28,635 nucleotides of DNA from a virus: positions 1 through 28,635 of the IMG/VR virus record IMGVR_UViG_3300013132_000197. One strand, 5' to 3'. Below, one piece after another: positions 4,366-28,635 of the stretch; positions within the stretch are counted from its first letter, which is position 1; each line of letters opens with the position of its first letter. The notes below the pieces were generated by a model, which did no database searches, had not been told where the DNA came from, and saw only the letters and a list, made by a program, of their open reading frames with translations. A program made the translations under genes and the position numbers.

Positions 4366-4386
4366 TTTGACATTCCAATGTATCTT

Positions 4387-5637: not shown

Positions 5638-5650
5638 GATAATTCCTTAA

Positions 5651-6367
5651 TCAAGATTGGTTAATTGTAACGGGAATAGATAGCGAAAGACCAGAATTTT
5701 GCCCCACTATTCTTATAGACGTAGAAATTTGAAGTACAGTACCACCCGAGGTCGTTACACTTCTTCCATATGTTGTAAAAGCACTATTAGATATGGACTT
5801 AGCGAATAAATTAAAAGTAGCTTGTCGACTTGTATTTGTTAGATTGCTTGCGTTAACAACGTAATGAGCCGTTCTTAAAGCGTCTTGAGATACCTGTCCT
5901 GGATTATTATTTATATTTTCGATCAATAAAAACAGCGATGGATAATAAAGATCAAATACCGCATCGGCTATATTAGCATCAAGTTCTGTAGCTGAATCTG
6001 ATGATGACAATGATTGCTGTATAGTTACACTAGCGTTTTTACCTTGAATTAAAGATACGGTTGCGTTGGCGGATGTCAATGCGAGCTGTGGTAGATAAAC
6101 AAGCGGACTCGGAATGGAGATTAGTTTATTTTTTAGTGCTAGATTTTGATTCGTTAATGCTTCAAATACAGGTGTATTTTTTTCTATTTTTTCTCTACCG
6201 ATGGTTCTACCGTATTTCGTAATAATTCCGTAATTTACTTCGTCGTCGCCTAAAGAAAATCTTACGACATTAAATGATCCATTATTTCTAGCTAAAGCTT
6301 CTCTACCATAGTCAGTTAATACTGCGTCTAAAATTATATTGTTAGTTGAGTTATCTAACCAGCCCAT
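5651..6367 (-). CDS. Virion structural protein with N-terminal 'LDN' module
   Basis: This 238-residue protein starts MGWLDNSTNNIILDAVLTDY and continues GREALARNNGSFNV with an acidic GDDE segment. The same pattern opens the 358-residue protein at the other end of the virion block, so the two are distant paralogues over roughly the first 40 residues. The rest is Ser/Thr/Asn-rich and beta-like, with no catalytic motif. A strong Shine-Dalgarno, AGAGGAG, lies 6 bases before the ATG, and the gene follows a 63-base gap after the 640-residue gene, the largest gap inside the block. That leaves room for its own promoter; the gap contains the perfect palindrome ATACGTAT at 6399-6406. The call as virion protein rests on position and on the shared module. 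Confidence 0.68.
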   Translation of the reverse strand: MGWLDNSTNNIILDAVLTDYGREALARNNGSFNVVRFSLGDDEVNYGIITKYGRTIGREKIEKNTPVFEALTNQNLALKNKLISIPSPLVYLPQLALTSANATVSLIQGKNASVTIQQSLSSSDSATELDANIADAVFDLYYPSLFLLIENINNNPGQVSQDALRTAHYVVNASNLTNTSRQATFNLFAKSISNSAFTTYGRSVTTSGGTVLQISTSIRIVGQNSGLSLSIPVTINQS

Positions 6368-6430
6368 TTATGACTCCTCTACAGTTCTTCGTTATTACAT
6401 ACGTATAAACGATAAAAAATTATTGCTAAT

Positions 6431-8353: not shown

Positions 8354-11300
8354 TATGCTATCACTTCCAACTCTGCATAATAACTATTAAATTCTACTCT
8401 TGCATGCCTCGCTGCAACTCTTTTGTAATTACCGTTTGATGCCTGCTCAATTATACCTAAATTTTTATAATAGTCTGTGACGCTTTGATTTTCGAACTTA
8501 GAAAGATCTTCGTCTATTTCAAAATCGTCTGGATCAAAAGATATATGAAAAACTCTATCAAATTTTTTGGGTGTTATCAGATTTCTTTTTATAGTTTCTT
8601 CACCTAAAAACATAGTGTTTTTTAGATATTCAATTGCACCGTTTGTAATAGCATTGACACCTAGAGTAGAGCTATCTAGCGATTTAACTGTTTTTTCATA
8701 ATTAAAAAAAGATTGTTCGTCAAAAGAAACGCCTGTTGAAAACTTAAGATATTCTTCAAGAAACAAACTATCTATGTGGTTTTTTCCTAACTGCCTTATT
8801 TGCTCTTCTTCAAGAATGTTTCGGTAAGCGACGAATTCGTTATTGTTAGATTGCATTAAGTCAGCGGCATTTTCTGCTCGTAGTTCCGATATATTTTGAA
8901 AGTTTTGTAGGTTAAAAAATGGTAGGAACTCGATCAAAGAAGAAGAAAGATTTTCTAACTCTTCTCCTTCTCCTGAATCTAACAACTGTAAAGTTCCGAT
9001 CGCTTGATCAAGATAATAATTCAAAGTTCTTATTGGATATTTTTGTAAATCAAAAATAAATTTTTGGGGTTTGTGAATTAACGTTGGTCGAAGATGGTCT
9101 TCTAAATACACGTTGATTGAAACAATATTTTTTTGACCAATTGCGTCTTTCAACGTACTAGCATTAGTCGGTTTGCGTAATTTTCTATATAGTTTTTGCG
9201 GTATGCCAACAGATATTATCTTCAAATTATTGGCCGCTGGTGCTTTGAATTTGTCTTTTTTTAGATACTCTTTTAATAAGAAATTCCACGAAGCCAAATG
9301 AAGATCTTCTAGCGGTAACAAGTTGTTTAGAACTTTGAGATCTTCATTTTTTAATGTAGCGAAATATGGAACGAGAGTCTTTAAACCCGAATCATAATTT
9401 GGATTTAATCTCGTTTTTAGATACGAGAGTTTGCTTTTAAGTAAATCAAGCTGTTCAATACTAAATAATCTCGACACCAAATTACCATCTTGCAGTATAC
9501 TGTTAATTGGGTCATAAATCTGCATGTATGTGTTACTGTTATTTTGGAATTGATTGATTAAGTTTGTTAACTTACCATCTAGCAGCGTTAGGTAACACGC
9601 AAACCAAGAAGACATTTTTTTCAATGTGACTGTTTCAAACCAAATTCTATTTTCTGCTTCCAATATGACTTCATCGTATCTATAAATGTTAAGTTGTTTT
9701 ACCCCACCAGTAAATATGGTGGTTAGTTTGCCGTCTAGTTCAACAGTAACAGTATCTTGATTATTAAAATATTCTAATTTTTCAACTGGTCGTCTTGTTT
9801 GCTGGATTACAAACAATTTTTTTCCTTTTTCATTAATTAAGGCAGTAATAGTTTGAAAGTTAACTTCATTAACCATTAAACAGCACAAGAAAAACATCAA
9901 GCAAGTAAGAGATTCTTTCTGTATACCAGTATAAAATGTTTTTTCTAGTTCTCTACCAAAAGTAAAAGGATTCGCAACGTCGGAAGGCGATACGTTTGAG
10001 CTATCTTGTTTGTTAAATTGCATCACAATAGATGCAATTACTAAAGCAATTTTATCAAGAGTCAACATAGATTGTCTGGAGTCAATCGCTTGATCTAAAT
10101 CTATAAAGTTATCTTGAAAAAAATTACCATTGACGGTACGACTATTGGCGAAATGTTCTATAAAATATGTTTTGATCTTATCTGTAATATTTTTTAATTT
10201 ATGATTAGTTTGTGTACCGCTGTTTATTTTTAAAATAGCATCAACTTTAGCGATCACGTATATGTAAAGTAAGGCAAGTAAGTTATTGTTTTTGTGAACT
10301 TTTTCAATATTGTCGAGAGCAAAAGATATTAATAAAGGACTTACATCGGGAGATTTTTTAACATTTAACGGTTCGCTTAATCTTGGTAGATAGTCTTCTG
10401 TTAATAGCTTGTTTTCTAAAAATCTAATTAATTGTAATGGATTTCTAATTATGTTGTTTATGTTTTTAAAACTCAATTCAAAATTTGAATCGGAGTTTAG
10501 AGTACTGTCAAGTTCTTGTTGCGCTGTCGCAACTCCTGAAAAAGTAATTGGAGAATCGTTACTACTCGCAGGTTTAGTATAAACTAAATCTCCTTTACTT
10601 CTAGGGGTTATTAACTTATCGAATAAAAACTGAGTATTGTTAGCATCTTGTGCAGAACATATATCCTTTACGGAGTTAGCTGCAATTCTCACGCTGTCTC
10701 TAAAAGAATTGATATTACTCGTTTGAAATAAATTTTTTGTTTCAAATAATTCGTCTATGTAATAAATCGAACCTGGCGTTAATATAGCGTTTCTACTAAC
10801 GCTGTCGGTCGCGTTGACATCATCATTTACATAAGAATTTTCGAAGCTTAAAACTTCAATTTCGTTATTTGTGTTGTTTGATAAGAATTCTCTTCTCTGC
10901 GCGATAGCAGTTAAAGAGTTAGAAGAGTAAGGATTTTTAGGTATATCCGTAATGTCTCTCCCAACTTTTCCTATCAGGTAATTCCAAAATATAACGTTAT
11001 CTTCTTTGCTTAAATTGTTATTTGGATAACTTAAGTCACTTAACAATTGAGACCCGTTATAAAATAATTTTCTTAATTCGCTGGAATATTTTAGTTCTTT
11101 GGCGATTAGATAACTCAAACGAGCGATAGATTTCGATTTTTGAGTTAAATCTTCTCCTATCAACTCCTGCATCGGTACATTTAAAATAGAATGTTGTTCA
11201 GTAGTAAAACTAAGAATTAATTGATTTTGTAATGTATCAAGTATTTCTTGCGAAGTCAAATCAAGCACGTTGTTCGTGTTAGAATAAAAACCCAATAGAG

Positions 11301-12183
11301 ATAATTGTTTTTTATTAAAAGTTAACTTATTCTTTCTATTTTGAGGTTCGTGTAACAAATATGCGCTTGTAACATTGGTAGGTAAAGATGCTTCTGAAGA
11401 TTCTATTACGAATAATCCGTCGTTCGATGAAACTCCCATTTGCAAAGCTTCTCGAAATTCTAAGCACATTTGCAACCAGGTTTTTGTCGATGTCCAATTC
11501 GACCAATATTCCCTAGGGGTATTTGTTAATTCATCGAGCGTCGCGAGATTTTTTAAGTCTTCTGGAACGGGAAGATTGGTTGCTACATATGAAAAATCTG
11601 TTTTAAAATTTAGCGCTCTTTTTGTATCTGTGACTCCCGCCATTAACGAATTTAAACCAGATTCTATCGTATCACAAAATGTATATAGATTTTGTCGTGT
11701 AGTTTCAATCGTTTTTTTAATAGTTTCTTGTGTAGTTTCTTCAGCTTGTTTTTGTAGTTTTATAGTTTCGAAAATATTTTTAAGACTATCGACGCAAGAT
11801 ATTAGATTAGCATCTTGTTTAGCTTGAAAAAAAGTTCCAATAGAATTTAGCGCGTTAACATCGTTTAGCTTATCATAGCAAGGTAAAAAGTCTGTTAATG
11901 CTATTATTTCTGGTTTATCAACTGTAACGTTTGCTAGCGCGTCGTATGGATTTACATTGTTATTAGAAAATTCTGTGTTATCTTGTGGCGATGATATTGA
12001 AAAGGTAACGATGGGTTCTGCTTTCGAAATTTTAATCTTTTTAAGATCTCTTTTTTTTTCGTCTAGTGTAACTCTTCTTTGAAGATTTAAACTTGCATCA
12101 ACTGTTGTACGAGCATTAGCACGGGCGACGACGGGCGCCGGTACGGCTATTGGTCTTTTTATTATTTCGATTTTTCTTTTCAT
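8353..12183 (-). CDS. Giant protein of unknown function in the virion block (1276 residues)
   Basis: I do not recognise this 1276-residue protein. It opens with a basic, Ala/Pro-rich stretch (RPIAVPAPVVARANARTTVD), followed by a probable coiled-coil region near 130-165 (KLQKQAEETTQETIKKTIE). The long body is helix-rich and Asn/Leu-rich, unlike its beta-rich neighbours. No signal peptide, transmembrane segment, Walker motif or clear nuclease signature is visible. Its ATG overlaps the TGA of the 767-residue gene (ATGA) and its TAA overlaps the ATG of the 640-residue gene, so three very large proteins are made in a coupled series, suggesting a joint complex at fixed stoichiometry. A baseplate, neck or tail component fits best. 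A tape measure is possible from size, but the lack of hydrophobic segments argues against a typical one. Confidence 0.6.
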   Translation of the reverse strand: MKRKIEIIKRPIAVPAPVVARANARTTVDASLNLQRRVTLDEKKRDLKKIKISKAEPIVTFSISSPQDNTEFSNNNVNPYDALANVTVDKPEIIALTDFLPCYDKLNDVNALNSIGTFFQAKQDANLISCVDSLKNIFETIKLQKQAEETTQETIKKTIETTRQNLYTFCDTIESGLNSLMAGVTDTKRALNFKTDFSYVATNLPVPEDLKNLATLDELTNTPREYWSNWTSTKTWLQMCLEFREALQMGVSSNDGLFVIESSEASLPTNVTSAYLLHEPQNRKNKLTFNKKQLSLLGFYSNTNNVLDLTSQEILDTLQNQLILSFTTEQHSILNVPMQELIGEDLTQKSKSIARLSYLIAKELKYSSELRKLFYNGSQLLSDLSYPNNNLSKEDNVIFWNYLIGKVGRDITDIPKNPYSSNSLTAIAQRREFLSNNTNNEIEVLSFENSYVNDDVNATDSVSRNAILTPGSIYYIDELFETKNLFQTSNINSFRDSVRIAANSVKDICSAQDANNTQFLFDKLITPRSKGDLVYTKPASSNDSPITFSGVATAQQELDSTLNSDSNFELSFKNINNIIRNPLQLIRFLENKLLTEDYLPRLSEPLNVKKSPDVSPLLISFALDNIEKVHKNNNLLALLYIYVIAKVDAILKINSGTQTNHKLKNITDKIKTYFIEHFANSRTVNGNFFQDNFIDLDQAIDSRQSMLTLDKIALVIASIVMQFNKQDSSNVSPSDVANPFTFGRELEKTFYTGIQKESLTCLMFFLCCLMVNEVNFQTITALINEKGKKLFVIQQTRRPVEKLEYFNNQDTVTVELDGKLTTIFTGGVKQLNIYRYDEVILEAENRIWFETVTLKKMSSWFACYLTLLDGKLTNLINQFQNNSNTYMQIYDPINSILQDGNLVSRLFSIEQLDLLKSKLSYLKTRLNPNYDSGLKTLVPYFATLKNEDLKVLNNLLPLEDLHLASWNFLLKEYLKKDKFKAPAANNLKIISVGIPQKLYRKLRKPTNASTLKDAIGQKNIVSINVYLEDHLRPTLIHKPQKFIFDLQKYPIRTLNYYLDQAIGTLQLLDSGEGEELENLSSSLIEFLPFFNLQNFQNISELRAENAADLMQSNNNEFVAYRNILEEEQIRQLGKNHIDSLFLEEYLKFSTGVSFDEQSFFNYEKTVKSLDSSTLGVNAITNGAIEYLKNTMFLGEETIKRNLITPKKFDRVFHISFDPDDFEIDEDLSKFENQSVTDYYKNLGIIEQASNGNYKRVAARHARVEFNSYYAELEVIA

Positions 12184-14483
12184 ATAGATCCATCAAACTC
12201 TTCTGGATTTACAATTATCGTGTTTGTTCTGACAGTTGGACCCACCGTGTAATCATTATAGACAGGAGTCACATAATAAATAATTGTTCCTACGTCACTA
12301 AGACCTATAGAGTCGACGTGTCTCAAGTTTTGAGTCGTTGTTAATATTTTTCTTTTACTATTAGATTCTTTTACTACAACGAAGTGATCGTAGTGTTCAA
12401 TAGACGATTCAATCTTCCAATTTAAAACTATGGTTTTCATGTCAACCCTTTTAGCGTTGATCGACTTTAGTTCTAGTAATTTTTCTAGTTTGTCTACTCT
12501 AACGCTAGCAACGACGCCCAAGTCGCTATCTTCAACTATCGAAGATTGTATTAATGTACCATCTGCGTTTTCTGCGGGTAAAACCCCAGTGTTTAAGGTT
12601 TTTTGTTGTAACCATTTATATGGTTTAAATTTATACGTTTTTTTCTTAGTACCATCTCCAATTTTTATTTGTGCAGGTACAGTTATTACGTAATCTTTTA
12701 ATAAGCTTATGGGATTTTTGTAATATCCTCTAACTTCATACATGTAATCGTAGTTTGGATTTATATCAGAAACGCCAGAGTTTTTTCTCGTTGAAGCGTT
12801 GTCATCGAACCTACCACTTGACAAGATATCTTTAAACTCTTCTTCAATAGCTGGAGAGACAGATAAATTTATTCTAGTTACTTTAAAAAAAGTTAAGTCT
12901 TGTAATTTGTCTTTTAACTTTTCAAATTCTTTTTTGAATACATCCGCAAGACCTGTCTGGAAACTTTGAGACAACGTTCTTTGAATTAGATTATTGTTTT
13001 CCTCAACAGATACGGATCCTATCTCAAAAGTAATTGACGGTCCTTCATTGGTCATTGTCATAGTTAAATCAGACAACGTCGTTTGTAAAGATTTGTATCG
13101 TGACGAATCTACGTATTTGTGCACCTTAAATGCCGAGTCTTTAATCGTGCCATCATTTAACTTATACTTTATCGAATATTCGTATCGACGATCGTGTATA
13201 ACATTGTAGTCCAAGACTTTTTTAGGATAAGGTCGCGTAGGTAAAAAACTACTTAGTTGTTGATAGTCTTCAAAACTTCCATAGCTTTCATTTAACAAGT
13301 TTCTTTTTAAAATTTGAAATTCAATCGCTTCAGGTGGTGAGTTTTGTACCAATATTTCAACAGCTTTTTCTGTTTCATTATCAGAGACGTGTATAGTCGT
13401 TGAATCTATAAAAGGAATAGTACCTAATATTACATTTTTAAAAGCAGATGAAGTTTTTGTTCGCGGATCTGAGTTGTACGCAGTACAACGATAAATTTGA
13501 ATTTCAGATACGGAATTTGCTTCAGATATGCGAGTATAATTGTTTTTTCTTAAATTTTCAGCTTGAAAAATTGTTACGTATTTTGATACGTGATTGTTTG
13601 TACTAATAATTTTTTTCTGTACTTGCAATCCTTTAGCGTCAGGATCGTTTTGCGATATTTGCAATCCTGTAGTTTGATTAGACAACGGAGCTTCTACAAT
13701 AATCGGTTTTTGTATGATACCGTTTTTTATATTTATTAGATCTTGTATAACTAAAACCTTTTTTCTCTCCTCAAAAACTAGGTTATTAGAATTAGCTGAA
13801 TAAAGTTCAAAAGTAACTTCGAGCTGTTCTGACTTATACTTTTCAGGTATTCTAATCTGGCGACTTACATACATTCTAGTTTTTACTTTATCTGATTCAA
13901 TACCATAATAATATTTTTTATCTTTAGAAAGAGAATTGGTAGATTCTAAAAGATAATAATTAAACAGCGTATTTACGTGAGAGTTTTTTCTATATTCGTC
14001 TGTTAAAACGACTTCGGATGGATCTACTTTTAAAGTTTTTATTATTGATAAATTTCTATCTCGCAGCGTGAAAAAATCTAAACGAGTATTTCTATAGTTT
14101 TGTAATTGAGTATCAAAGTTAGGCGGTCTAACTTCTTGTAGGACTCTACGCTTATCTAAATATTGAAAATTTAATTCTTCAATGTTAACTAATTCTTCTA
14201 ATATCAAAAAAGAATCTTTTGTTCTAGCAGCTTGTAGCGCACTAAAACCTCTAGTTAAAAAATTTCTATCTAAACTCGTGTTTTTTCTTATGCTTTCTTC
14301 GTAATTTTTTCTTGATATTTTTATCTTTAGTTTGGTTAGTTTTTTGCTTTTTATTTCTTGTCTGTTGATATTAAAAGCAAAATTAAAAACATAATGATTT
14401 TCTCGCAATCCGACAAGAGTAGCGAAATATTCGGGTATTGCTAGCGAAGTTTCAACTTTTCTTTGCTCAATAGGCTTGAACAT
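12180..14483 (-). CDS. Virion protein with C-terminal fibronectin III-like domains (767 residues)
   Basis: The C-terminal 95 residues read like an FN3 domain: MKTIVLNWKIES, HYDHFVVVKES, then LSDVGTIIYYVTPVYNDYT. Two earlier stretches (RRYEYSIKYKLNDGTIKDS and DYMYEVRGYYKN) carry similar last-strand patterns, so several beta sandwiches may follow one another. The N-terminal third holds Lys/Arg-rich helical segments. The longest open frame begins seven codons earlier at a TTG, but the ATG at 14483 is preceded by GAGG with a 6-base spacer and is much the better start; it leaves a 17-base overlap with the end of the 358-residue gene. The protein resembles the 640-residue product in having FN3-like parts, and the 1276-residue gene is coupled to it by ATGA. 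A tail or baseplate role is inferred from context. Confidence 0.65.
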   Translation of the reverse strand: MFKPIEQRKVETSLAIPEYFATLVGLRENHYVFNFAFNINRQEIKSKKLTKLKIKISRKNYEESIRKNTSLDRNFLTRGFSALQAARTKDSFLILEELVNIEELNFQYLDKRRVLQEVRPPNFDTQLQNYRNTRLDFFTLRDRNLSIIKTLKVDPSEVVLTDEYRKNSHVNTLFNYYLLESTNSLSKDKKYYYGIESDKVKTRMYVSRQIRIPEKYKSEQLEVTFELYSANSNNLVFEERKKVLVIQDLINIKNGIIQKPIIVEAPLSNQTTGLQISQNDPDAKGLQVQKKIISTNNHVSKYVTIFQAENLRKNNYTRISEANSVSEIQIYRCTAYNSDPRTKTSSAFKNVILGTIPFIDSTTIHVSDNETEKAVEILVQNSPPEAIEFQILKRNLLNESYGSFEDYQQLSSFLPTRPYPKKVLDYNVIHDRRYEYSIKYKLNDGTIKDSAFKVHKYVDSSRYKSLQTTLSDLTMTMTNEGPSITFEIGSVSVEENNNLIQRTLSQSFQTGLADVFKKEFEKLKDKLQDLTFFKVTRINLSVSPAIEEEFKDILSSGRFDDNASTRKNSGVSDINPNYDYMYEVRGYYKNPISLLKDYVITVPAQIKIGDGTKKKTYKFKPYKWLQQKTLNTGVLPAENADGTLIQSSIVEDSDLGVVASVRVDKLEKLLELKSINAKRVDMKTIVLNWKIESSIEHYDHFVVVKESNSKRKILTTTQNLRHVDSIGLSDVGTIIYYVTPVYNDYTVGPTVRTNTIIVNPEEFDGSI

Positions 14484-15543
14484 TGTTATCCTCGTTAGTC
14501 TCAAAAACTAAAGTAAAAATATGAACAAAATTAGTAGACCCTGCGTCGTCTATCAATATTTTTCCAATGAAAAATATATGATGCGTATCTGCAAAAGGAT
14601 TGTTAGAATTATTGCTTACTTTTCCATAGTCTATTACATCTAATTTAGAAACAGAGTTAGGAGATATTTCAAACATTTGTGCAACCAAGGCATTATCGCG
14701 AGATGTCGGATCAAAAAAAATAGTTTTTGCAGATGATTCGTATTTCGACAGTTCTTGTTTTATGTCTTGATAAGTTAATTTTTCGATAGGTCCCCAGGCG
14801 GGATAATCGCCTAACAATAATCCTGCATCTTCTAACGCTAAAATATTCGTTTTATCAATAGATGTTGATGTTTTTTTGATAGGCGGTAAGTAAAGAAAGT
14901 TATCAACGTTTCTTAGTTTTTCATCGCTAAAAAGAGCATCAATATGATTGACGCTGGTCGGATTTTGCATTTGTAACGTTTCTTCGTTGGGTTCGATAGT
15001 AAAAGTAATTTCGTTATTACTAAGTGCAAAATCTTGATCTTCGAACAACGTATCTTTGGACCCTATAATCCTTAATTTTGTAAAGTTATCAAAAGAAGAA
15101 GTTAAAATTCCTTCTATCTGTGAAGCGAAATTAACATCTTTTATGGCAGTTTCACTATAACTGCTTGTAACTGCAAAATTGACACCATATCTTTTGGTAT
15201 TTTGCTTAAGTTTACCTTGATAAAAATTAGACCAAGAAAGACTACTCGTCACCGCGCCTGACGAAGATTCACCTTTTATAAATTCGTGTTGTTTAAATGG
15301 AACTAAGTTTCCTGCATCATCGCTTTCAAAAATTATTTGATCGTGCGGGGCGTTAAAACACTCTAAAAAGATCTTATTCGTTGGATCTTCATGGCCTTCA
15401 TTAGCGTTTTTTTGATAAAAAATATGAGCATCTGAAAACGTGGCAAATTTGACAGTAAAGTTACCGTCTGCCATCTGTCTTCTACCTTCTGCGGTCAGAA
15501 TGGCATCAATAACCCTAGATTTATTGTCTAATATTCCACTCAT
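14467..15543 (-). CDS. Virion structural protein with N-terminal 'LDN' module, first of the structural block
   Basis: This 358-residue protein starts MSGILDNKSRVIDAILTAEG, then RRQMADGNFTVKF. It matches the opening of the 238-residue virion protein (LDN, DA.LT..GR, A..NG.F.V..F) and so shares a structural module with it. Later parts mention no known enzyme motif; there are beta-like segments and Asn/Asp-rich turns. The gene lies 40 bases after the stop of phoH and leads the series of seven long co-directional genes. No clear Shine-Dalgarno precedes the ATG (TTGAAGCC only). Its 3' end overlaps the next gene by 17 bases. Virion role is inferred from the shared module and position; I do not recognise a named family. 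Confidence 0.66.
   Translation of the reverse strand: MSGILDNKSRVIDAILTAEGRRQMADGNFTVKFATFSDAHIFYQKNANEGHEDPTNKIFLECFNAPHDQIIFESDDAGNLVPFKQHEFIKGESSSGAVTSSLSWSNFYQGKLKQNTKRYGVNFAVTSSYSETAIKDVNFASQIEGILTSSFDNFTKLRIIGSKDTLFEDQDFALSNNEITFTIEPNEETLQMQNPTSVNHIDALFSDEKLRNVDNFLYLPPIKKTSTSIDKTNILALEDAGLLLGDYPAWGPIEKLTYQDIKQELSKYESSAKTIFFDPTSRDNALVAQMFEISPNSVSKLDVIDYGKVSNNSNNPFADTHHIFFIGKILIDDAGSTNFVHIFTLVFETNEDNNVQAY
14490..14493 (-). promoter_or_regulatory. Ribosome binding site deciding the start of the 767-residue virion gene
   Basis: GAGG on the minus strand, 6 bases before ATG 14483-14481. The longer frame would need a TTG at 14504 with no comparable site, so the ATG is preferred. Confidence 0.65.
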
Positions 15544-17085: not shown

Positions 17086-17346
17086 ATGAAAAAAACAAAG
17101 AAACTAAAGCTAATAGACGATAGGGCTTGTTACTCTTTACACGAATTTTACAATGTTAATTGCGAGAAAAAAACGTGTAAAAACTGGATCGGTTATACCG
17201 ATGGAAAAAATTGCGTCATAATTGCTTCAAAGGCAGGTCCTAAAACCCTTCAAGAAATAGGAAAAATCTATAACTTAACGAGAATGAGGATCTGCCAAAT
17301 TGAAAAGAACATCTATCAAAAAGTAAAAACTGTATTGCAAGATTAA
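17086..17346 (+). CDS. Small sigma-70 region 4-like DNA-binding protein with Cys-rich N-terminus
   Basis: This 86-residue protein ends in a helix-turn-helix that matches sigma-70 region 4: GPKTLQEIGKIYNLTRMRIC followed by QIEKNIYQKV (residues about 51-80), compare the usual 'TLEEIG..F.VTRERIRQIE'. Ahead of it are four Cys (C15, C26, C31, C43), spaced so that a small metal site is possible. Similar short 'Cys-rich plus region 4' proteins are widespread in aquatic phages, as I recall them. It probably binds -35-like DNA or host RNA polymerase and helps switch phage transcription. It is the only plus-strand gene between 15.6 and 21.2 kb. Its stop overlaps that of the convergent 129-residue gene in TTAA. 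It is too short to be a full sigma factor, as region 2 is absent. Confidence 0.78.
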   Translation: MKKTKKLKLIDDRACYSLHEFYNVNCEKKTCKNWIGYTDGKNCVIIASKAGPKTLQEIGKIYNLTRMRICQIEKNIYQKVKTVLQD

Positions 17347-21298: not shown

Positions 21299-22723
21299 AT
21301 GACTCATACTTTAAAACAAGTGTATCAACACAAAAAAATTCTTGAAACTAAAAACAAAGTGGTTACCGCTCAACTTGCGATGCTTGAAAGAAAAGAAGTC
21401 GAAGCATTGATCAATGAAGCGATAGAAGAAAATATTGATGACGTACAGGCAGTTATAGAAAAGCTAAGAACCTTTGAAGACATTATCAAAAGCGATCCTA
21501 GCAAAAATGCTGCTGAAATGACCAAGATATTACAAGATCAAATGGATGAAATAAACGCAGCGGTTGCTAAAGACAAAAAAGGTGGTGTATTTGGTCTTTT
21601 TCAAAGATTATCACCGGAAGAAAATCCCGTAAATAAGGCTTTGGCTTTTATTGCTGCACTTGAAGCTGGGTTCAAAGTTCTACCCACCATCGTAAAAAAC
21701 AATTTAAAATCCGCATCTGATCCTAAAAACGTAGAAAAGTCGATTGATGAATTAACGACGGGCGAAGATGAAAAATTAAAAAAAGCTGGCGATATTATTA
21801 GAAAATCATTTCAAAAAGCCTTTATAACAAAGGGTAAATTGGCTAATTTAAAGTTCGACGCTAATAAAGCTGGATTGAGCGATTTTATTTTTGGTTTAAC
21901 CACTCTCAAGTTAGAAACTTTAAATAATTTAGCAAAACAAATAAGCGCAGGACCGCAAGCTAGTGTTGCTGCCGACGCAGCAGAAGTCACCGCACCTTCT
22001 ACTGAGGAAACGAGTAGTTCAGAAGAAGATAAAGGCGGAAAAGGTGTTGGACCATTCGATAAAATTAAAAGCGCAATTGGCGCAGCAAAATCATTTGATG
22101 ATGTGATTAATTCCGTAAAATCTTTAGGCGCAGGAACAAAAATAAAATTAGGCAGTGGACAAGAAATTGAAGTTAAAAAATTATTAGACTCTTTGGAGAA
22201 GATAAAAAACGATCCCAACCCTAAGAATTACGATGAACAAAAATTAAAAAATGAGATGGGTATTACAGACGCCGGTGGTCTTAGAAGTAAGGTACTTCAG
22301 TTACTTCGCGGTGGAAAACCTGCAGGTAAAGACGCAGGACCAGGTCAACCCGTTGTAGATAAACAACAAAGACAACAAATTGTTGCATTAACTAGCGACG
22401 CCGCAAAGAAGGCTGGAATAACAGACGGAGATTCTGTTCAAGCGTTAATGGATAAACTTGATTTTAAGGTTGGTTCGTTAGAGGGTGCCTTAGTCGTTCC
22501 TCAATTACAAAAACTACAACGAAAATTTAACATACCCGAAGAACAAACCGATGGATTTATTAGAGGGTTAATGCTGGATTTTGAAGCTGATTTTAAGAAT
22601 GAATTACAAAATTCTATTACTAAAGAAGTTGAAAGAATAAAGAAAGAAAGAGAAGAAAAAAAGAAAAAAGGTGAAAAAAACGTTAGTATAGACAATGAAC
22701 TAAAAGACGTAATGGGAACCTAG
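21299..22723 (+). CDS. Helical, partly disordered protein of unknown function (474 residues)
   Basis: I do not recognise this protein. Residues 1-70 are predicted coiled coil (MTHTLKQVYQHKKILETKN onward); 100-135 is a Gly-rich loop then helix (GGVFGLFQRL); 225-250 is a low-complexity Ala/Thr/Ser/Glu/Gly linker; and the C-terminus is a charged helix with EERKKKK-type runs. No signal peptide, membrane segment or catalytic motif is visible. Size and composition resemble internal virion or scaffold-like proteins, but the sequence does not prove that. It is a single gene on the plus strand, divergent from the clpP-helicase series and convergent with the GroEL-like gene, with which it shares a CTAG stop-codon overlap. 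No clear Shine-Dalgarno precedes the ATG. Confidence 0.6.
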   Translation: MTHTLKQVYQHKKILETKNKVVTAQLAMLERKEVEALINEAIEENIDDVQAVIEKLRTFEDIIKSDPSKNAAEMTKILQDQMDEINAAVAKDKKGGVFGLFQRLSPEENPVNKALAFIAALEAGFKVLPTIVKNNLKSASDPKNVEKSIDELTTGEDEKLKKAGDIIRKSFQKAFITKGKLANLKFDANKAGLSDFIFGLTTLKLETLNNLAKQISAGPQASVAADAAEVTAPSTEETSSSEEDKGGKGVGPFDKIKSAIGAAKSFDDVINSVKSLGAGTKIKLGSGQEIEVKKLLDSLEKIKNDPNPKNYDEQKLKNEMGITDAGGLRSKVLQLLRGGKPAGKDAGPGQPVVDKQQRQQIVALTSDAAKKAGITDGDSVQALMDKLDFKVGSLEGALVVPQLQKLQRKFNIPEEQTDGFIRGLMLDFEADFKNELQNSITKEVERIKKEREEKKKKGEKNVSIDNELKDVMGT

Positions 22724-23886
22724 TCTGCGATTATCGTTTCAATTTCATTTATAGATTGTAAAAATTTACTGGCATAAAACATGCCTGATTTGATACCTGA
22801 GTATGGAAATGTTTTTGAATTGAGATCGCAAATTCCAAAAGTTCTTGCGTCTTTAACAGCGCGTAATGATCGATCGATCATAAAATTTTTTTGTTTTTTA
22901 TTAGAAGTTTCTTTTAATCTAATCGTAATCCTGTTCATTCCTAAATTTTGTAGACGTTTTGTTGCTACATCTTTTTCGTATTGATTATCAGAATTTATGA
23001 TTTTTTCTTGTAATTTTTTAATGTGTAGATCAACTAACGCCGATGTTGCTTGATTTTCAATTCCGATGCCAGATGTTGTAATATCAACCGAATCCACTCG
23101 AAAAAATTTATTTAAGTCAATATTACTGATTAATTCGCCTTTATGAGTAGATACGACGTCGCTACAATTAATAGTTGCAATATCGTTTAATAAATTAGCA
23201 TTTTCTATATCATACTTTACGATTATTGGTACTAATCGTAAAGATCCTCTGTCGTAGTTAATCTTTAAAGTACGTAACACTTCATCAGATAATCCTCTAA
23301 CAAATAAAATTATTGTTTCTTTAGAAGAAGATGCATCTTCTAACAATCTATGTATTTCTGAGACTGATTCTACAAATCCGTCGACGCATATCAATCGAGG
23401 ATTTAGAAATTTTGTAGATTTTAGATTGAACGCAGGAATTAAATCTGAAAAAAAACTTCCTTTAACTAATTCGACAATATCATCGTCGCCGTTAACAGGG
23501 TGCTGCGATAACACTATTTTTCCATGTAGTCCAGCATATTGTAAACAATCGTCTATCATCTCGACCGTATGCTCGTCTTCTAAAAAAGTAGATAATAATT
23601 TTTTAATAGATGATTTATCGAATTTTTTTAATTGAGTCGGTACAACTTCTTCGTTCGAAAGAAAAGCTATAAATCCTTCTAAACCGCCGGCCGCAATAGC
23701 TTCAGCTTGCAAGAGATGAGACATCAATAATTCAAAAATTATTTGTTCACAAACATCATCGTGCTTTAATTTTTGTAATTCTTGTATACAAATTGCAAGA
23801 TTTTTATTTTTACAAAAATCAATAATAGTTTTTTGTATTTTTTTACTAGAGATTTTTATCTTTTCACTTGTAAAAATATTGTCCAC
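22720..23886 (-). CDS. Diverged GroEL-like (chaperonin 60) protein lacking ATPase signature
   Basis: The middle of this 388-residue protein follows GroEL closely. DEHTVEMIDDCLQYAGLHGK (104-123) matches GroEL DETVGKLIAEAMDKVGKEG; ELVKGSFF...PAF (139-153) matches VVEGMQF...PYF; DRGSLRLVP and NDIATINCSDVVS (212-246) match MRGIVKVAA and QDIATLTGGTVIS. IKKLQEKIINSDNQYEKDVA with KRLQNLG (289-316) matches the intermediate-domain helices. EAIAAGG (62-68) lines up with KAVAAGM. By the same alignment GroEL GDGTTT becomes DDVCEQ, the LGPKGRNV phosphate loop is absent, Asp398 is an Arg with Asp one place earlier, and the C-terminal equatorial domain is cut to about 40 residues (GroEL is about 548). So it probably cannot hydrolyse ATP or form the normal ring. 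The start is GTG, the only one in frame before an upstream stop; no Shine-Dalgarno is seen. Confidence 0.82.
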   Translation of the reverse strand: MDNIFTSEKIKISSKKIQKTIIDFCKNKNLAICIQELQKLKHDDVCEQIIFELLMSHLLQAEAIAAGGLEGFIAFLSNEEVVPTQLKKFDKSSIKKLLSTFLEDEHTVEMIDDCLQYAGLHGKIVLSQHPVNGDDDIVELVKGSFFSDLIPAFNLKSTKFLNPRLICVDGFVESVSEIHRLLEDASSSKETIILFVRGLSDEVLRTLKINYDRGSLRLVPIIVKYDIENANLLNDIATINCSDVVSTHKGELISNIDLNKFFRVDSVDITTSGIGIENQATSALVDLHIKKLQEKIINSDNQYEKDVATKRLQNLGMNRITIRLKETSNKKQKNFMIDRSLRAVKDARTFGICDLNSKTFPYSGIKSGMFYASKFLQSINEIETIIAD

Positions 23887-23924
23887 TAATTAAAGTTATC
23901 TAATCTTTTTTAGATTGTACAACT

Positions 23925-24455
23925 CTAAGGTAAGAACTTTACGACGTTAAAAAACAGTTTGAATAAGACCGTTAAAAAGGCGCCACCAACTGCCGCCAAC
24001 GTCCATTTAACAGTTGCGGTTGTTAATCCGTTAAATTTTTCTATATTTTCTATAGAAGACTCGATTTTTTGTATTTTAAGTTGTAATTCGTCGGCTTCCT
24101 TTTCACAAGTTTCACCATCAACTTCGGCTTCTTTTTTCCAAACTATTAATTCGTCAACGTGTTTTTCGACTCTATTCGTTGATTCTACTTGTATCGCTTT
24201 ATTAGCGGCAATCCGCGCGAATAAACCGTCATCTGGATGATATATCGCTTCATGAATCATGTCAACCTTTTCAACGATTTGAACTTGACTTTTTTCTATG
24301 CCGTCTATTTTGTATAATAGTCTATCAAAACCACCATTTAAGGCTGGACTATCATCAAGTTTTTTATGAATATTGTGAAGTAATCTAACAGAGCTTTCAT
24401 TAACGTCGGATTCATCGACTTCAATAAGTTGGCGGCGAATATTTTTTTTGTTCAT
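23925..24455 (-). CDS. Coiled-coil protein with C-terminal membrane anchor
   Basis: This 176-residue protein has no recognised family. Residues 1-40 are charged; 41-140 hold heptad-like helices (GGFDRLLYKIDGIEKSQVQI and ADELQLKIQKIESSIENIEK) predicted to form a coiled coil. Residues about 151-170 (WTLAAVGGAFLTVLFKLFFN) make one hydrophobic helix near the C-terminus, followed by VVKFLP. There is no N-terminal signal, so it would be a tail-anchored membrane protein facing the cytoplasm. Phage proteins with this plan include some lysis-related and virion-associated proteins, but no spanin or holin signature is clear. It lies 38 bases ahead of the GroEL-like gene on the same strand and is divergent from the glycosyltransferase cluster. 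Confidence 0.62.
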   Translation of the reverse strand: MNKKNIRRQLIEVDESDVNESSVRLLHNIHKKLDDSPALNGGFDRLLYKIDGIEKSQVQIVEKVDMIHEAIYHPDDGLFARIAANKAIQVESTNRVEKHVDELIVWKKEAEVDGETCEKEADELQLKIQKIESSIENIEKFNGLTTATVKWTLAAVGGAFLTVLFKLFFNVVKFLP

Positions 24456-24562: not shown

Positions 24563-26515
24563 ATGAACAGTTTTAATATAAAAGATGAAATTTTTGACAA
24601 AAAGAAGTCGCAATTAGACAAAAATTCACAGATAATATTTGTCGCAGATCTTTTTGTAGAGGATTATGTAGGAGGCGCTGAATTAACTTCAGAAGCTCTA
24701 ATAAACGAATGTCCTCTTAAGATTGAAAAAATCAAATGTCAGGACGTTACTATGGATATTCTCCAGCAAGGTGTCGACAAATATTGGATATTTGGTAACT
24801 TTGCAGCGCTCAATCCACAATTAATTCCAAGCATTATTGCGAATTTGCAATATTCTGTTCTTGAATATGACTACAAATATTGTAGATATAGATCTCCAGA
24901 AAAACATCAATCATCGACTAACTCTGCCTGTGATTGTCATGATCAACTCAACGGTAAATTAATATCGGCTTTTTATCACGGGGCTAATTCACTTTGGTGG
25001 ATGTCAGAAGCTCAAAAGTCATGGTATCATAATTTATTTCCGTTTTTAGCAGAAAAAGATAACGTCGTGTTATCTAGCGTTTTTTCTAAAGACACTTTAG
25101 GTAAGATTAAATTATTGAGAAACGACCTAAAGGGAATACAGACCGATCGTAAAGGTTGGATCGTGTTGGGCAGCGAATCTTGGATAAAAGGATTTGACGA
25201 CGCAAAAAAATGGTGTGCAGATAATAACGTTGAACCGACTATTTTGTGGAATCTACCTTACGAGGAGACGCTAGCCCGCATCGCAAATGCCGAAGGTTTC
25301 GTTTATTTGCCAAAAGGCAAAGATACATGTCCACGCATGGTAATCGAGGCCAAACTATTGGGTTGTAAACTTCATCTAAATGATAACGTTCAACACAAGG
25401 ACGAAGAATGGTTCGCTATTGATGACGTTGATTCTATAGAAGAGTATCTTTACGCGGCGCCTAGTTTGTTTTGGAACGGCGTAAAAAAGGCCATGAACTA
25501 CAAACCTAGAATAAGTGGTTACACGACTACGCTTAATTGCGTAAAACAAAATTATCCTTTTATCGAAGCCGTTACATCGATGTTAGGTTTTTGCGATGAG
25601 GTTTGTATTGTTGACGGAGGATCAACGGACGGTACTTTAGAAAAATTAAAAGAATTATCTGACCTAGATCATAGGATTAAATTAAAAATTATTGAAAGAG
25701 ACTGGAACGATGCTAGATTTGCTGTGTTTGATGGTTTACAAAAAGCAGAAGCCCGAGCGATGTGCACGAGCGATTTTTTGTGGCAAATGGATAGTGATGA
25801 AATCGTACATGAGGACGACTACGCTAGAATAACTGAATTAGCAAAGAAATTTCCGAAAGGTATTGATTTAATAGCGCTTCCCGTAGTCGAATACTGGGGA
25901 TCTCAAGATAAGGTTCGCGTCGATGTTAATCCTTGGAAGTGGAGATTCAGCAGAAATTCTAAAAATATAATTCACGGTATACCAAAATCTCATCGTCGTT
26001 TAGATGAACAAGGAAGGTTGTACTCGGCAGGTTCTGACGGTTGCGACTACATTTACGCGGATACATTCGAGCCAGTTCCATTCGTGTCGTTTTATAATAC
26101 AGAGGTAGACAAAGCGCGGATGGAATCTTTATTAAGTAATAAAAATGCTTTATCTGCTTATGAAAATTGGTTAAATAATGTTGTGCAAAATTTACCCGGG
26201 GTACATCATTATTCTTGGTACGATATTGAAAGAAAAATTCACACTTACAAAAATTATTGGTCAAAGCATTGGACTGCTTTGTTTAATCAAACGCAAGAAG
26301 ACACAGCAGAAAATAATAAATTTTTTGGTAGGCCATGGTCGACTGTTTCGAACGAAGATATAAAAATTCTTGCAAAAAAAATGAAATATGAATTAGGAGG
26401 ATGGGTTTTTCATTCATTAGTAGATTTTTCGAAACCTACTCCATGGATTAAACTAAAGACTTCATCTCCAAAAATAATGCAAGATTGGACTTCTAAAGTT
26501 GAGGCTACTAAGTGA
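24563..26515 (+). CDS. Two-domain glycosyltransferase: GT-B (GT4-like) plus GT-A (GT2-like)
   Basis: This 650-residue protein looks bifunctional. Residues about 20-300 are GT-B: the first Rossmann strand IIFVADLF, then VGGAELTSEAL (about 36-46), and a second Rossmann domain with WIVLGSESWIKGFDDAKKW (about 198-216) and CPRMVIEAKLLGCKL, which resembles the sugar-nucleotide EX7E region. Residues about 317-560 are GT2: TTTLNCVKQNYPFIEAVTSM, then CIVDGGSTDGT (about 348-358) and QMDSDEI with the metal-binding DxD-type motif at about 410-412, followed by a WKWRFSRN loop. The latter would use a nucleotide-sugar and Mn/Mg. It is first of a coupled plus-strand series. The acceptor could be a virion protein, DNA or a host-type glycan; the sequence does not say. 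No Shine-Dalgarno is clear before the ATG. Confidence 0.82.
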   Translation: MNSFNIKDEIFDKKKSQLDKNSQIIFVADLFVEDYVGGAELTSEALINECPLKIEKIKCQDVTMDILQQGVDKYWIFGNFAALNPQLIPSIIANLQYSVLEYDYKYCRYRSPEKHQSSTNSACDCHDQLNGKLISAFYHGANSLWWMSEAQKSWYHNLFPFLAEKDNVVLSSVFSKDTLGKIKLLRNDLKGIQTDRKGWIVLGSESWIKGFDDAKKWCADNNVEPTILWNLPYEETLARIANAEGFVYLPKGKDTCPRMVIEAKLLGCKLHLNDNVQHKDEEWFAIDDVDSIEEYLYAAPSLFWNGVKKAMNYKPRISGYTTTLNCVKQNYPFIEAVTSMLGFCDEVCIVDGGSTDGTLEKLKELSDLDHRIKLKIIERDWNDARFAVFDGLQKAEARAMCTSDFLWQMDSDEIVHEDDYARITELAKKFPKGIDLIALPVVEYWGSQDKVRVDVNPWKWRFSRNSKNIIHGIPKSHRRLDEQGRLYSAGSDGCDYIYADTFEPVPFVSFYNTEVDKARMESLLSNKNALSAYENWLNNVVQNLPGVHHYSWYDIERKIHTYKNYWSKHWTALFNQTQEDTAENNKFFGRPWSTVSNEDIKILAKKMKYELGGWVFHSLVDFSKPTPWIKLKTSSPKIMQDWTSKVEATK

Positions 26516-27249
26516 AAAATCGTTTTGTTTTTGTTGTACCATACTACAACGCAGTAGACGATATCGCGAATACGATTCACTCTATGCTAGCACAAAGCTA
26601 TGGTGATTGGAGAGCTATATTAATAAATGACGTTTCTACGGATAAGGGTCCTGACTTAGTTAAAAAAATTGTTGATGGATCGATACACAAAGATAGATTT
26701 ACGTTGATAGACAGAGTAGAAAAATACGGAGAAGTACGCAATACTTTAACTTCACTAGAATCCATAGAAGATGATGAAATAGTGTGTCGCTTGGACGGCG
26801 GCGATTGGTTGTTGGAAAATGATCTACTTTGGATTATTAATGAATCTTATAGAGATTCTAAGCAGGCAGTAGCATGGACTGCACATCGTTGGAGTTATAC
26901 GACGCGAAATATTTCTGGTCCATTGAATTTGCAAGCGGGTCAAACTGTTTATCAACATCCTTGGGTTTCAAGCCATCTTAAAACGTTTCGAGCTGGCCAG
27001 CTTCGTAAAGTTCCTAAGGCCAACTTTTTCACCGATTCTGGTGAATATATCATGATAGCATGCGATCAAGCTATATTTCTTCCTATGATGCATCTGTCTC
27101 ATCTAGAAGGAAAAAAGCTGAACTTTGTTCCTATTGTAGGTTACCACTACAACATAGATCTTGGAAACAAAAATTTGTTTACTTCGAATCGAGCCATCAA
27201 CCAAAAGATGTCAGCCGAAATGATTCGTGAAAGAGGATTTTTAGGGTGA
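26512..27249 (+). CDS. GT2-family glycosyltransferase
   Basis: This 245-residue protein has the GT-A fold: FVFVVPYYNAVDDIANTIHS (5-24), SYGDWRAILINDVSTDKG (29-46), and RLDGGDWL (93-100), where the acidic pair would bind the metal of the nucleotide-sugar. Length is typical of a minimal GT2 catalytic domain, with no membrane segments. The start is GTG overlapping the TGA of the preceding gene (GTGA), so translation is coupled with the two-domain enzyme and the two probably act on the same product. The next gene overlaps in the same way. The donor sugar cannot be told. Confidence 0.87.
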   Translation: MKNRFVFVVPYYNAVDDIANTIHSMLAQSYGDWRAILINDVSTDKGPDLVKKIVDGSIHKDRFTLIDRVEKYGEVRNTLTSLESIEDDEIVCRLDGGDWLLENDLLWIINESYRDSKQAVAWTAHRWSYTTRNISGPLNLQAGQTVYQHPWVSSHLKTFRAGQLRKVPKANFFTDSGEYIMIACDQAIFLPMMHLSHLEGKKLNFVPIVGYHYNIDLGNKNLFTSNRAINQKMSAEMIRERGFLG

Positions 27250-28136
27250 GGATTCTTCTAGATAACGTCAATGTCAATTCTTCTTCGGGACCAAATTCAT
27301 TTGGTAGAAGACTCATGATTGAATCTCAAAACACCGGCCACATCGTGGGACCCAACGTGTTCGATCCCGACGTTCAATTGTCTTTCATAATGGCTACCCA
27401 AAAGAAAACCAAAATGGCACTAAGACTAGATGGAATCTATTTTAATTCTAGACAAGACTGGGAAAAATTAAATTCACCAATTAAGCAATCGTTCGAACAG
27501 GCCGAGTTAGTCGTATACCAATCTAACTTTAACAAAAAATTGACAGAAAGATATTTCGGTACAGCTAAAAAATCGGTAGTAATCAATAATGGTACGTGTT
27601 TGCAAACCATAGATGCTATTCCGAAGTTCAATCACCCTGAGCTCGATAAATACTCAGAGGTGTGGTCCTGTGCTTCTTCTTGGCGTCCACATAAAAGGCT
27701 TAAGGAAAATATAGGATATTTTTTGGAAAAATCTCCTGAGGATTCTTGCCTTGTTGTAGCAGGTGAAAACCCAGATCACGTCGTTAAACATCCTAGAATA
27801 CTTTATGCCGGTCAACTTTCTTGGGAGCAATGTGTAACTCTATATAAAAGATCGAGTACTTTTCTACACCTCGCTTTTCTTGATCACTGTCCAAATGTTG
27901 TTGTAGACGCCCGTGCGGCCGGCTGTAAATTAGTCGTAGCTTCTAGCGGTGGAACTAAAGAGATAGCAGGTCCAAATTCTGTAATAATTGAAGACTTGGA
28001 TTGGGACTTGTCTCCTCTTGACCTTTATTCACCACCATCTTTAGATTATTCTAAAGCAAGAAAGAACGAAATTAATTCTGACATAAATATCGTTAGCGTA
28101 AGTCGTCGATACATTGAAGCTTTGGAGTCGATATGA
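27246..28136 (+). CDS. GT4-like glycosyltransferase (GT-B fold)
   Basis: This 296-residue protein reads as a short GT-B enzyme. It begins MRILLDNVNVNSSSGPNSFG, a first Rossmann strand and Gly-rich loop; ELVVYQSNFNKKL (87-99) is the usual 'V..S.F.' segment before the linker; EVWSCASSWRPHKRL (138-152) matches the 'G.....KG.d' strand of GT4; and SSTFLHLAFLDHCPNVVVDA with RAAGCKLVVASSGG (203-236) is the donor-binding region. The usual first Glu of the EX7E motif is Asp213 or Cys215 and the second is Asp221, so donor contacts may differ. At 296 residues it is shorter than the usual 350-400. The start is GTG overlapping the TGA of the GT2 gene. The product is unknown. Confidence 0.83.
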   Translation: MRILLDNVNVNSSSGPNSFGRRLMIESQNTGHIVGPNVFDPDVQLSFIMATQKKTKMALRLDGIYFNSRQDWEKLNSPIKQSFEQAELVVYQSNFNKKLTERYFGTAKKSVVINNGTCLQTIDAIPKFNHPELDKYSEVWSCASSWRPHKRLKENIGYFLEKSPEDSCLVVAGENPDHVVKHPRILYAGQLSWEQCVTLYKRSSTFLHLAFLDHCPNVVVDARAAGCKLVVASSGGTKEIAGPNSVIIEDLDWDLSPLDLYSPPSLDYSKARKNEINSDINIVSVSRRYIEALESI

Positions 28137-28489
28137 AAAATATACATGAATCTGTCAGTAAGTTACTGTCGCTCAAGTTAGAAAAATATAAAAGTGAAAA
28201 GTTGAGTTCTTCGACTTGTACGGCAATTTATCAAGACATATTCGAAACGTTCGTCGATCTTTTTCAAGAATCGAAGATCGAAGTTAGTAACGAGGCTATG
28301 AACATGGTTTGTCAGATGTACTACGATGCTGTTACTATTAACGGTAATCAAGAACTAGATCCCAATATCTTTTCTCAAAGAGCTAGCGTAAAGAATGTCG
28401 AAACAAAAGAATTAGGACTTTTAGCCAGTCTTTTTTCTAATACGCCCTTTGCTTCTCCATTTATTTTTGAAATAAAAAGAAGGTCATAA
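28133..28489 (+). CDS. Small protein of unknown function in the glycosyltransferase cluster
   Basis: This 118-residue protein is not recognised. It is largely helical (KNIHESVSKLLSLKLEKYKS; QDIFETFVDLFQESK), with Lys/Glu-rich first half and a hydrophobic C-terminal stretch (LGLLASLFSNTPFASPFIF) that is too broken by Pro and Asn to be a confident membrane span. The ATG overlaps the TGA of the GT4-like gene (ATGA), and a cupin gene begins two bases after its stop, so it belongs to the sugar operon. It may be a partner or structural protein of the cluster; nothing in it shows enzyme activity. Confidence 0.6.
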   Translation: MKNIHESVSKLLSLKLEKYKSEKLSSSTCTAIYQDIFETFVDLFQESKIEVSNEAMNMVCQMYYDAVTINGNQELDPNIFSQRASVKNVETKELGLLASLFSNTPFASPFIFEIKRRS

Positions 28490-28491
28490 CG

Positions 28492-28635
28492 ATGAAGAAG
28501 GTCGAAAAAGGATGGGGTTATGAACTCTGGATCCACAATGATGAAAAATATTGTGGAAAACTTTTGTTTTTTTCCAAAGGTAAAAAATGCAGCCTTCATT
28601 ATCACAAGTTGAAACATGAAACTTTTTATGTTCAA
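28492..28635 (+). CDS. Cupin domain protein, sugar-phosphate isomerase-like (cut by right edge)
   Basis: The first 48 codons of an open frame run off the right edge. They read MKKVEKGWGYELWIHNDEKY then GKLLFFSKGKKCSLHYHKLK and HETFYVQ. The WGYELWI opening and the HxH...E metal-binding signature (H38, H40, E45 in LHYHKLKHETFYV) are those of the cupin family that includes mannose-6-phosphate isomerase/mannose-1-phosphate guanylyltransferase C-terminal domains and similar small cupins. It could supply or edit a sugar-phosphate precursor for the glycosyltransferases. AAGG lies 8 bases before the ATG. The exact reaction cannot be told from the fragment. Confidence 0.8.
   Translation, partial: MKKVEKGWGYELWIHNDEKYCGKLLFFSKGKKCSLHYHKLKHETFYVQ

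Follow-up and report, generated by a model that had tools for sequence, protein, structure and literature searches.

The dGT1 enzyme that acts on the Fap1 adhesin of Streptococcus parasanguinis is a two-domain glycosyltransferase (GT) in which the second domain depends on the product made by the first (PMC5063993). In Chlorovirus PBCV-1, the multidomain GT A111/114R is conserved within its group and is thought to build the conserved core of the virion glycan without host organelles (PMC7826918). Among T4-like phages, P-SSM2 and S-SSM7 are cyanophages with large lipopolysaccharide (LPS) gene clusters, whose functionality is given as not known in the report describing them (PMC3037559). Moraphages are jumbo aquatic T4-like phages for which four core GT orthogroups have been listed (PMC12619734). 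Here we describe a glycan gene island that begins at the right end of a T4-like phage fragment, the 28,635-base IMG/VR virus record IMGVR_UViG_3300013132_000197, which is taken in its entirety and is called the window below. The first gene of this island encodes a fused GT of 650 amino acids (GT650). What is new is that the island is well bounded, variable, and free of membrane proteins, and that it carries a conserved fused GT.

GT650 represents a real single protein family and a genuine GT-B/GT-A fusion, as had been proposed in the original prediction from the window sequence. The GT-B fold spans approximately residues 22-312, and the GT-A/GT2 domain begins at about residue 313. The C-terminal half matches the Pfam GT2 family (PF00535) over the cut-off (E 2.2e-10). 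The N-terminal half has no Pfam match and was also not recognized in a sequence-only comparison with PDB, and therefore a separate structure model was built for it. AlphaFold predicted this half alone with a pLDDT of 94.9 and a pTM of 0.90, compared to 93.5 and 0.80 for the full-length protein, which provides, for GT650, the structure prediction that had been suggested as a check for each enzyme. When the N-terminal model was compared with PDB by using Foldseek, the matches included the GT-B enzymes SenB, Gtf3/GtfC, GlgM, and BshA (best E 1.2e-5, TM 0.5-0.6). Profile-profile comparison of this half with the GT4-like enzyme of the same island gave a probability of 71% over 49 columns only. The fold of the GT-A half resembles those of SunS/ThuS, RmlT, TarP, and K4 chondroitin polymerase, which are peptide or wall-polymer GTs. 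Whole-chain fold matches were dominated by the GT-A half with low query TM-scores, and they were therefore used to assign fold and not function.

A scan of IMG/VR yielded 160 relatives of GT650. The best 80 of these 160 align nearly end to end with identities of 49-75%, with the exception of a few that are truncated by contig ends. Among 59 aligned sequences, the GT-B half retains invariant GGAE (residues 37-40), K209-G210, and D254-x7-E262 motifs, and the GT-A half retains invariant D351-GGSTD, a DXD formed by D410/D412, and H549. Because both motif sets are invariant, both active sites appear to be under selection. The conserved fusion of two domains with intact motifs fits two coupled sugar additions, the role foreseen in the original prediction, by which the two would be made without release. 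In the same alignment C107, H115, and C123 of the GT-B half are invariant and C125 is nearly so; residues 107-125 might form a metal-binding site.

No GT650 match is present among 50,697 catalogued phages. A scan of a bacterial genome collection produced three matches only, each on a single contig in a metagenome-assembled genome. We considered a host or bacterial origin for the protein, but these matches are most simply explained as phage contigs that were binned with bacteria. The three bins (L107, L108, and L109) are labelled Halobacteriovorax, Methylococcaceae TMED69, and Pelagibacter, which are possible, weak hints to hosts. GT650 and the core gene phoH diverge in step (r 0.75 for 250 non-independent pairs), as would be expected if GT650 is an inherited core gene. 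One in-frame TGA occurs within GT650 at G028:C1:73905-75920 and at G036:C1:29855-31783, and the gp23 reading frame of L082 (G020:C1:90048-91775) contains two TAG codons. Sequencing error, an intron, or stop recoding could possibly account for these in-frame stops.

The island was surveyed by clustering locus neighbourhoods and by examining 40 kb downstream in ten large records. The records of relatives are metagenomic and mostly incomplete, and the genes are our own open-reading-frame calls. In relatives, GT650 opens a long gene block on one strand. The interval from GT650 to a gene for a PD-(D/E)XK nuclease holds 12 to 30 genes per record in the ten large records, and all 202 genes in these intervals are on the GT650 strand with none on the opposite strand. 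This nuclease marks the far end of the island, where it is followed by two GT4-type enzymes of approximately 416 and 388 amino acids that are present in all ten records. Beyond this pair, the same strand encodes a small protein with one transmembrane segment, a late sigma-factor-like protein, and a baseplate wedge protein. Since GT650 had been the query by which every locus was collected, we also searched in reverse, with the 416-amino-acid GT from the far end, and considered records outside the earlier set that extend about 23 kb or more 5ˊ of this gene. A full-length GT650 gene resides upstream on the same strand in 14 of 14 such environmental records, including two with one in-frame TGA. 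Therefore, a single unit is bounded by GT650 on one side and by the far-end GTs on the other.

The middle of the island varies among phages, and consists of GTs together with nucleotide-sugar pathways. The families that recur most among 132 island proteins scanned with Pfam are GT2, GT4, NAD epimerase/dehydratase, GDP-mannose dehydratase, UDP-glucose dehydrogenase, DegT aminotransferase, acetyltransferase, methyltransferase, carbamoyltransferase, and nucleotidyltransferase. NCBIfam models for GDP-mannose 4,6-dehydratase and ADP-heptose epimerase are matched over their cut-offs, whereas relatives of the HldE-type kinase and adenylyltransferase, the rhamnose-pathway enzymes RmlA and RmlB, and PseB, PseC, and PseH fall below them. 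This free variation is what would be seen if the genes were host-derived cargo without function in infection, and the cyanophage comparison did not decide against large sugar clusters being such ‘stuffer’ DNA (PMC3037559). However, no testable record lacks GT650, the nuclease, or either of the far-end GTs, the GT650 motifs are invariant at about 55% identity, and the strand of the island genes is uniform. Thus, we regard the cargo explanation as the least probable of those considered, and as highly improbable in its own right.

Five genes at the right end of the window, the last of which is cut by the contig end, constitute the visible portion of the island. They are as follows, with the support for each in parentheses.

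24563-26515, + strand: GT650, two-domain glycosyltransferase of 650 amino acids and first island gene (Pfam GT2, AlphaFold, PDB fold matches, 160 viral relatives)
26512-27249, + strand: GT2-type glycosyltransferase of 245 amino acids (Pfam PF00535, E 2.8e-13)
27246-28136, + strand: GT4-like (GT-B) glycosyltransferase of 296 amino acids (Pfam PF00534, E 4.4e-6, just over the cut-off)
28133-28489, + strand: u118, conserved protein of 118 amino acids with no assigned family (alignment of relatives)
28492-28635, + strand: cupin, first 48 amino acids, cut by the contig end (full-length cupins in relatives that are 92-96% identical to it)

These genes are tightly coupled from position 24563 to the right edge. 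Consecutive reading frames overlap by four bases at the three junctions from GT650 through u118 (GTGA, GTGA, and ATGA), and the cupin start codon is located two bases past the end of u118. The gene content is as originally read, including the separate GT2, the GT4-like enzyme with an altered EX7E motif, the small gene of no assigned family, and the cupin at the edge. In the GT2 enzyme, residues D95 and D98 of the DxxD/DxDD motif are invariant in 61 of 61 relatives. In the GT4-like enzyme, EX7E is replaced by D213-x7-D/E221, in which D213 is the same in all 53 relatives compared, and profile comparison matches this protein to the PDB GT4 enzymes WbaZ and BshA. Within the clustered loci, the GT2 gene recurs in 63, the GT4-like gene in 55, and u118 in 37. 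Chance grouping is excluded because full-length GT650 recurs in 160 viral contigs and these neighbours recur with it.

Searches for cultured-phage relatives of the GT4-like protein and of u118 found none, and those for the GT2 enzyme found no cultured relatives but only weak matches in unannotated records of uncultured phages. The u118 protein has no match in Pfam, PHROGs, or PDB. In L024, L027, and L074 it is present as a tandem pair in which one copy has strongly diverged.

To the right of the window, the original prediction had expected sugar-nucleotide enzymes, and these are indeed present in relatives where the island can be read further. The closest relative (L002) has a GT650 that is 75% identical, and its 59.8-kb record was read through. 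Its island comprises 33 genes, among which are u118, the cupin, a GT9-type heptosyltransferase-like protein, both HldE halves, Kdo8P synthase, CMP-Kdo synthetase, and a family 29 sialyltransferase-like GT. The KdsA- and KdsB-type genes score over the NCBIfam cut-offs. Also present are a DAHP-synthase-like gene beside that for Kdo8P synthase and a gene for a HemL-like aminotransferase (L110:16405-17214, L110:17198-18001, and L111:3092-4228), which suggests an unusual ulosonic acid pathway.

The cupin fragment of the window is 92% identical to the cupin of L002 and 96% identical to that of another relative, L008. The full-length L002 protein matches Cupin_2 over the cut-off and MannoseP_isomer weakly. 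All six close homologues of the window cupin reside in loci with HldE-type ADP-heptose genes, and the nine-member cupin cluster is associated with HldE genes (Fisher p 2.6e-4). Therefore, ADP-heptose genes are predicted directly to the right of the window. Between L002 and L008, the cupin and HldE genes are 84%, 74%, and 67% alike, compared to 63% for GT650, and 39% and 34% for the GT2 and GT4 enzymes. That the cupin and HldE genes exceed GT650 in similarity hints at exchange of this part as a module.

ADP-heptose and CMP-Kdo are classic LPS-core sugars, and these genes bring forward the main rival to glycosylation of a phage component. Here, soluble GTs together with ADP-heptose, CMP-Kdo, and other sugars made by the phage would alter the LPS or lipooligosaccharide core in the cytoplasm before its export by the host, either to block superinfection or to keep progeny from being held on cell debris. 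The GT9/heptosyltransferase-like enzyme and the KdsA- and KdsB-type genes agree with such a role, and cyanophage sugar clusters have likewise been given the label of LPS genes (PMC3037559). However, heptose and Kdo genes are missing from many islands, and the island is located among late structural genes for baseplate and late sigma-like proteins, whereas remodelling directed against superinfection would be expected early. The constant fused GT, the variable middle, and the tail fibre genes adjoining the island in one subgroup suggest instead an acceptor carried by the phage. We consider LPS-core remodelling to be a serious contender, albeit on balance an unlikely one.

The lack of membrane proteins bears on whether the island could build an exported O-antigen, capsule, or exopolysaccharide, whose loci resemble it in having epimerases, dehydratases, aminotransferases, and GTs. 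A simple hydropathy scan that recognizes E. coli Wzx, Wzy, and WaaL detected, at a strict threshold, no strong transmembrane segment in any of the 202 island proteins. Neither a Wzx-type flippase (PF01943, control 13 of 14) nor a WecA/MraY family member (PF00953, control 12 of 14) was found in any of 20 records. The absence of all three features argues against the assembly of O-antigen or capsule, and we judge synthesis of an exported polymer to be very improbable.

Attachment of the glycan to phage DNA, in the form of hypermodified bases that counter restriction, is scarcely more credible. GTs that glycosylate phage DNA are well known, with T4 as the case cited in the moraphage report (PMC12619734), and 9 of the 20 records carry genes of the thymidylate-synthase/hydroxymethylase fold (PF00303), which includes dCMP/dUMP hydroxymethylases. 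However, this fold is missing in the other 11 records, several of which are over 230 kb; any of the 20 records may be a fragment. A profile search for Tet/JBP enzymes found none in the 20 records, with the control likewise silent. In addition, the variety of sugars and modifying enzymes exceeds the needs of known DNA decorations. Among the candidate targets named originally, virion proteins are favoured, whereas phage DNA and an exported surface glycan are disfavoured; a glycan on the LPS core retains the lesser standing given above.

Genes for candidate acceptors are present near the island in some relatives. In some 20 loci, large Ser/Thr-rich fibre-like genes are located upstream of GT650 and share its strand, and the last of these genes usually ends 59-270 bp before GT650. 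Six records have a strong match to the C-terminal fibre cap, with the fibres located beside GT650 in two and past the far end of the block in four. In those four records, the fibre genes lie approximately 40-50 kb downstream on the GT650 strand, beyond the baseplate genes. One fibre protein has matches to PHROGs for short tail fibres and for virion structural proteins.

The explanation that we favour is that the island glycosylates a virion protein, perhaps the tail fibres, step by step in the cytosol, and we give it about an even chance of being correct. Late in infection, the island enzymes would make activated sugars in the cytoplasm. GT650 would lay down two early conserved sugars, with its GT-B and GT-A domains acting in turn. 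The glycan would next be extended and decorated by the other GTs of the island, namely the small GT2, the GT4-like one, and those that vary among phages. As acceptor we envisage a soluble late phage protein, most likely of the virion and possibly the Ser/Thr-rich tail fibres, such that the finished particle would bear a phage-specific sugar coat. The variable middle of the island might cause this coat to differ between related phages, much as O-antigen or flagellin-glycosylation loci differ between strains. More tentatively, and with somewhat less than even confidence, the island could be a serotype-like virion glycosylation locus of a widespread aquatic phage lineage, with fixed entry and exit GTs, exchangeable sugar genes, and host-like heptose and Kdo that possibly serve as mimicry.

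Several points weigh against virion glycosylation. The succession of steps, the choice of sugars, and the nature of the acceptor are inferred, and the fold likeness to protein glycosyltransferases is weak evidence in so huge a superfamily. The place of the island among late genes reflects synteny rather than measured expression, and no clear late promoter motif was found upstream of GT650. Phages of the window type have no fibre gene adjoining GT650, with a divergent pair of unknown genes as its left neighbour instead, and both the ADP-heptose and CMP-Kdo pathways are present in the closest relative. Moreover, the E. coli waa GTs that act on the LPS core are also nearly free of transmembrane segments, and therefore the transmembrane test is compatible with soluble GTs that act on the lipid-A core.

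The remainder of the window provides the phage context. Genes to the left of position 24563 are mostly on the − strand and include those for a gp4-like head-closure protein, a RuvC-like resolvase, PhoH, and a DNA helicase. The divergent pair to the left of GT650 (22720-24455, − strand) encodes an unknown protein of 388 amino acids and a protein of 176 amino acids with weak holin/hemolysin-type matches, and about half of the relatives keep this pair beside GT650. The stretch from the gp4-like gene to phoH (1924-15543, − strand) contains seven large genes for proteins of 238-1276 amino acids. None of the seven matches PHROGs, and the six that were scanned against Pfam also gave no match; these are likely divergent baseplate or tail proteins. 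An open reading frame of 86 amino acids adjoins phoH (17086-17346, + strand), has relatives in 46 loci, and is probably a real gene.

Compared with known systems, GT650 shares with dGT1 the presence of two GT domains in one protein, and at the Fap1 locus several GTs glycosylate an adhesin in the cytosol, one step after another. The likeness extends to serine-rich-repeat adhesin loci, given that Gtf3/GtfC is among the best fold matches of the GT-B half. However, dGT1 combines GT-D and GT-A domains in a Gram-positive cell, whereas GT650 combines GT-B and GT-A domains in a phage where no accessory Sec context was seen. PBCV-1 is similarly a large DNA virus with its own conserved multidomain GT, but it infects eukaryotic algae, its protein has three domains, and its N-glycans are on a known capsid protein. 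Both dGT1 and A111/114R may be viewed as parallels in mode of action and not as claims of membership.

Nearer likenesses are with T4-like phages. P-SSM2 is a large T4-like myovirus with a large sugar cluster near phoH, although the available part of the cyanophage report describes no architecture of fixed ends within a late block (PMC3037559). GT650 is unmatched in the phage collection, in which the presence of P-SSM2 and S-SSM7 was not checked individually. Moraphages are large aquatic T4-like phages with conserved GTs, PhoH, and a uvsW-type helicase, and the available part of their description treats the GTs as core orthogroups, with the fused enzyme, the island, and its ends not described there (PMC12619734). 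A T4-type Gp23 capsid protein is present in 19 of 20 large GT650 records, which is consistent with moraphages but not diagnostic, and the GT650 phages are probably moraphages or belong to a related lineage.

Cultured isolates were reached via the far-end GT only. Flavobacterium phage immuto (MW353176) has a PD-(D/E)XK nuclease followed by two GTs, the second of which is 30% identical to the far-end GT of 388 amino acids. After this pair come aminotransferases, an epimerase, GTs, and a pilin-glycosylation-type protein. Immuto differs in lacking GT650 and in that its sugar genes flank the GT pair on the opposite side. Microcystis phage Mel-JY01 also lacks GT650 and has the far-end GT beside a nuclease and sugar genes. 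Phages of the lineage described here would display strain-variable sugar coats comparable to bacterial serotypes if the virion is the target, with effects on adsorption, host range, and recognition. This lineage offers a cleaner case than the sugar clusters known since the cyanophage genomes, with a conserved fused enzyme, fixed ends around a variable middle, no membrane export parts, and a place among virion genes. Because immuto and Mel-JY01 are cultured and have the far-end GT in common with it, along with sugar genes nearby, the question of whether such clusters work, and on what, can be tested.

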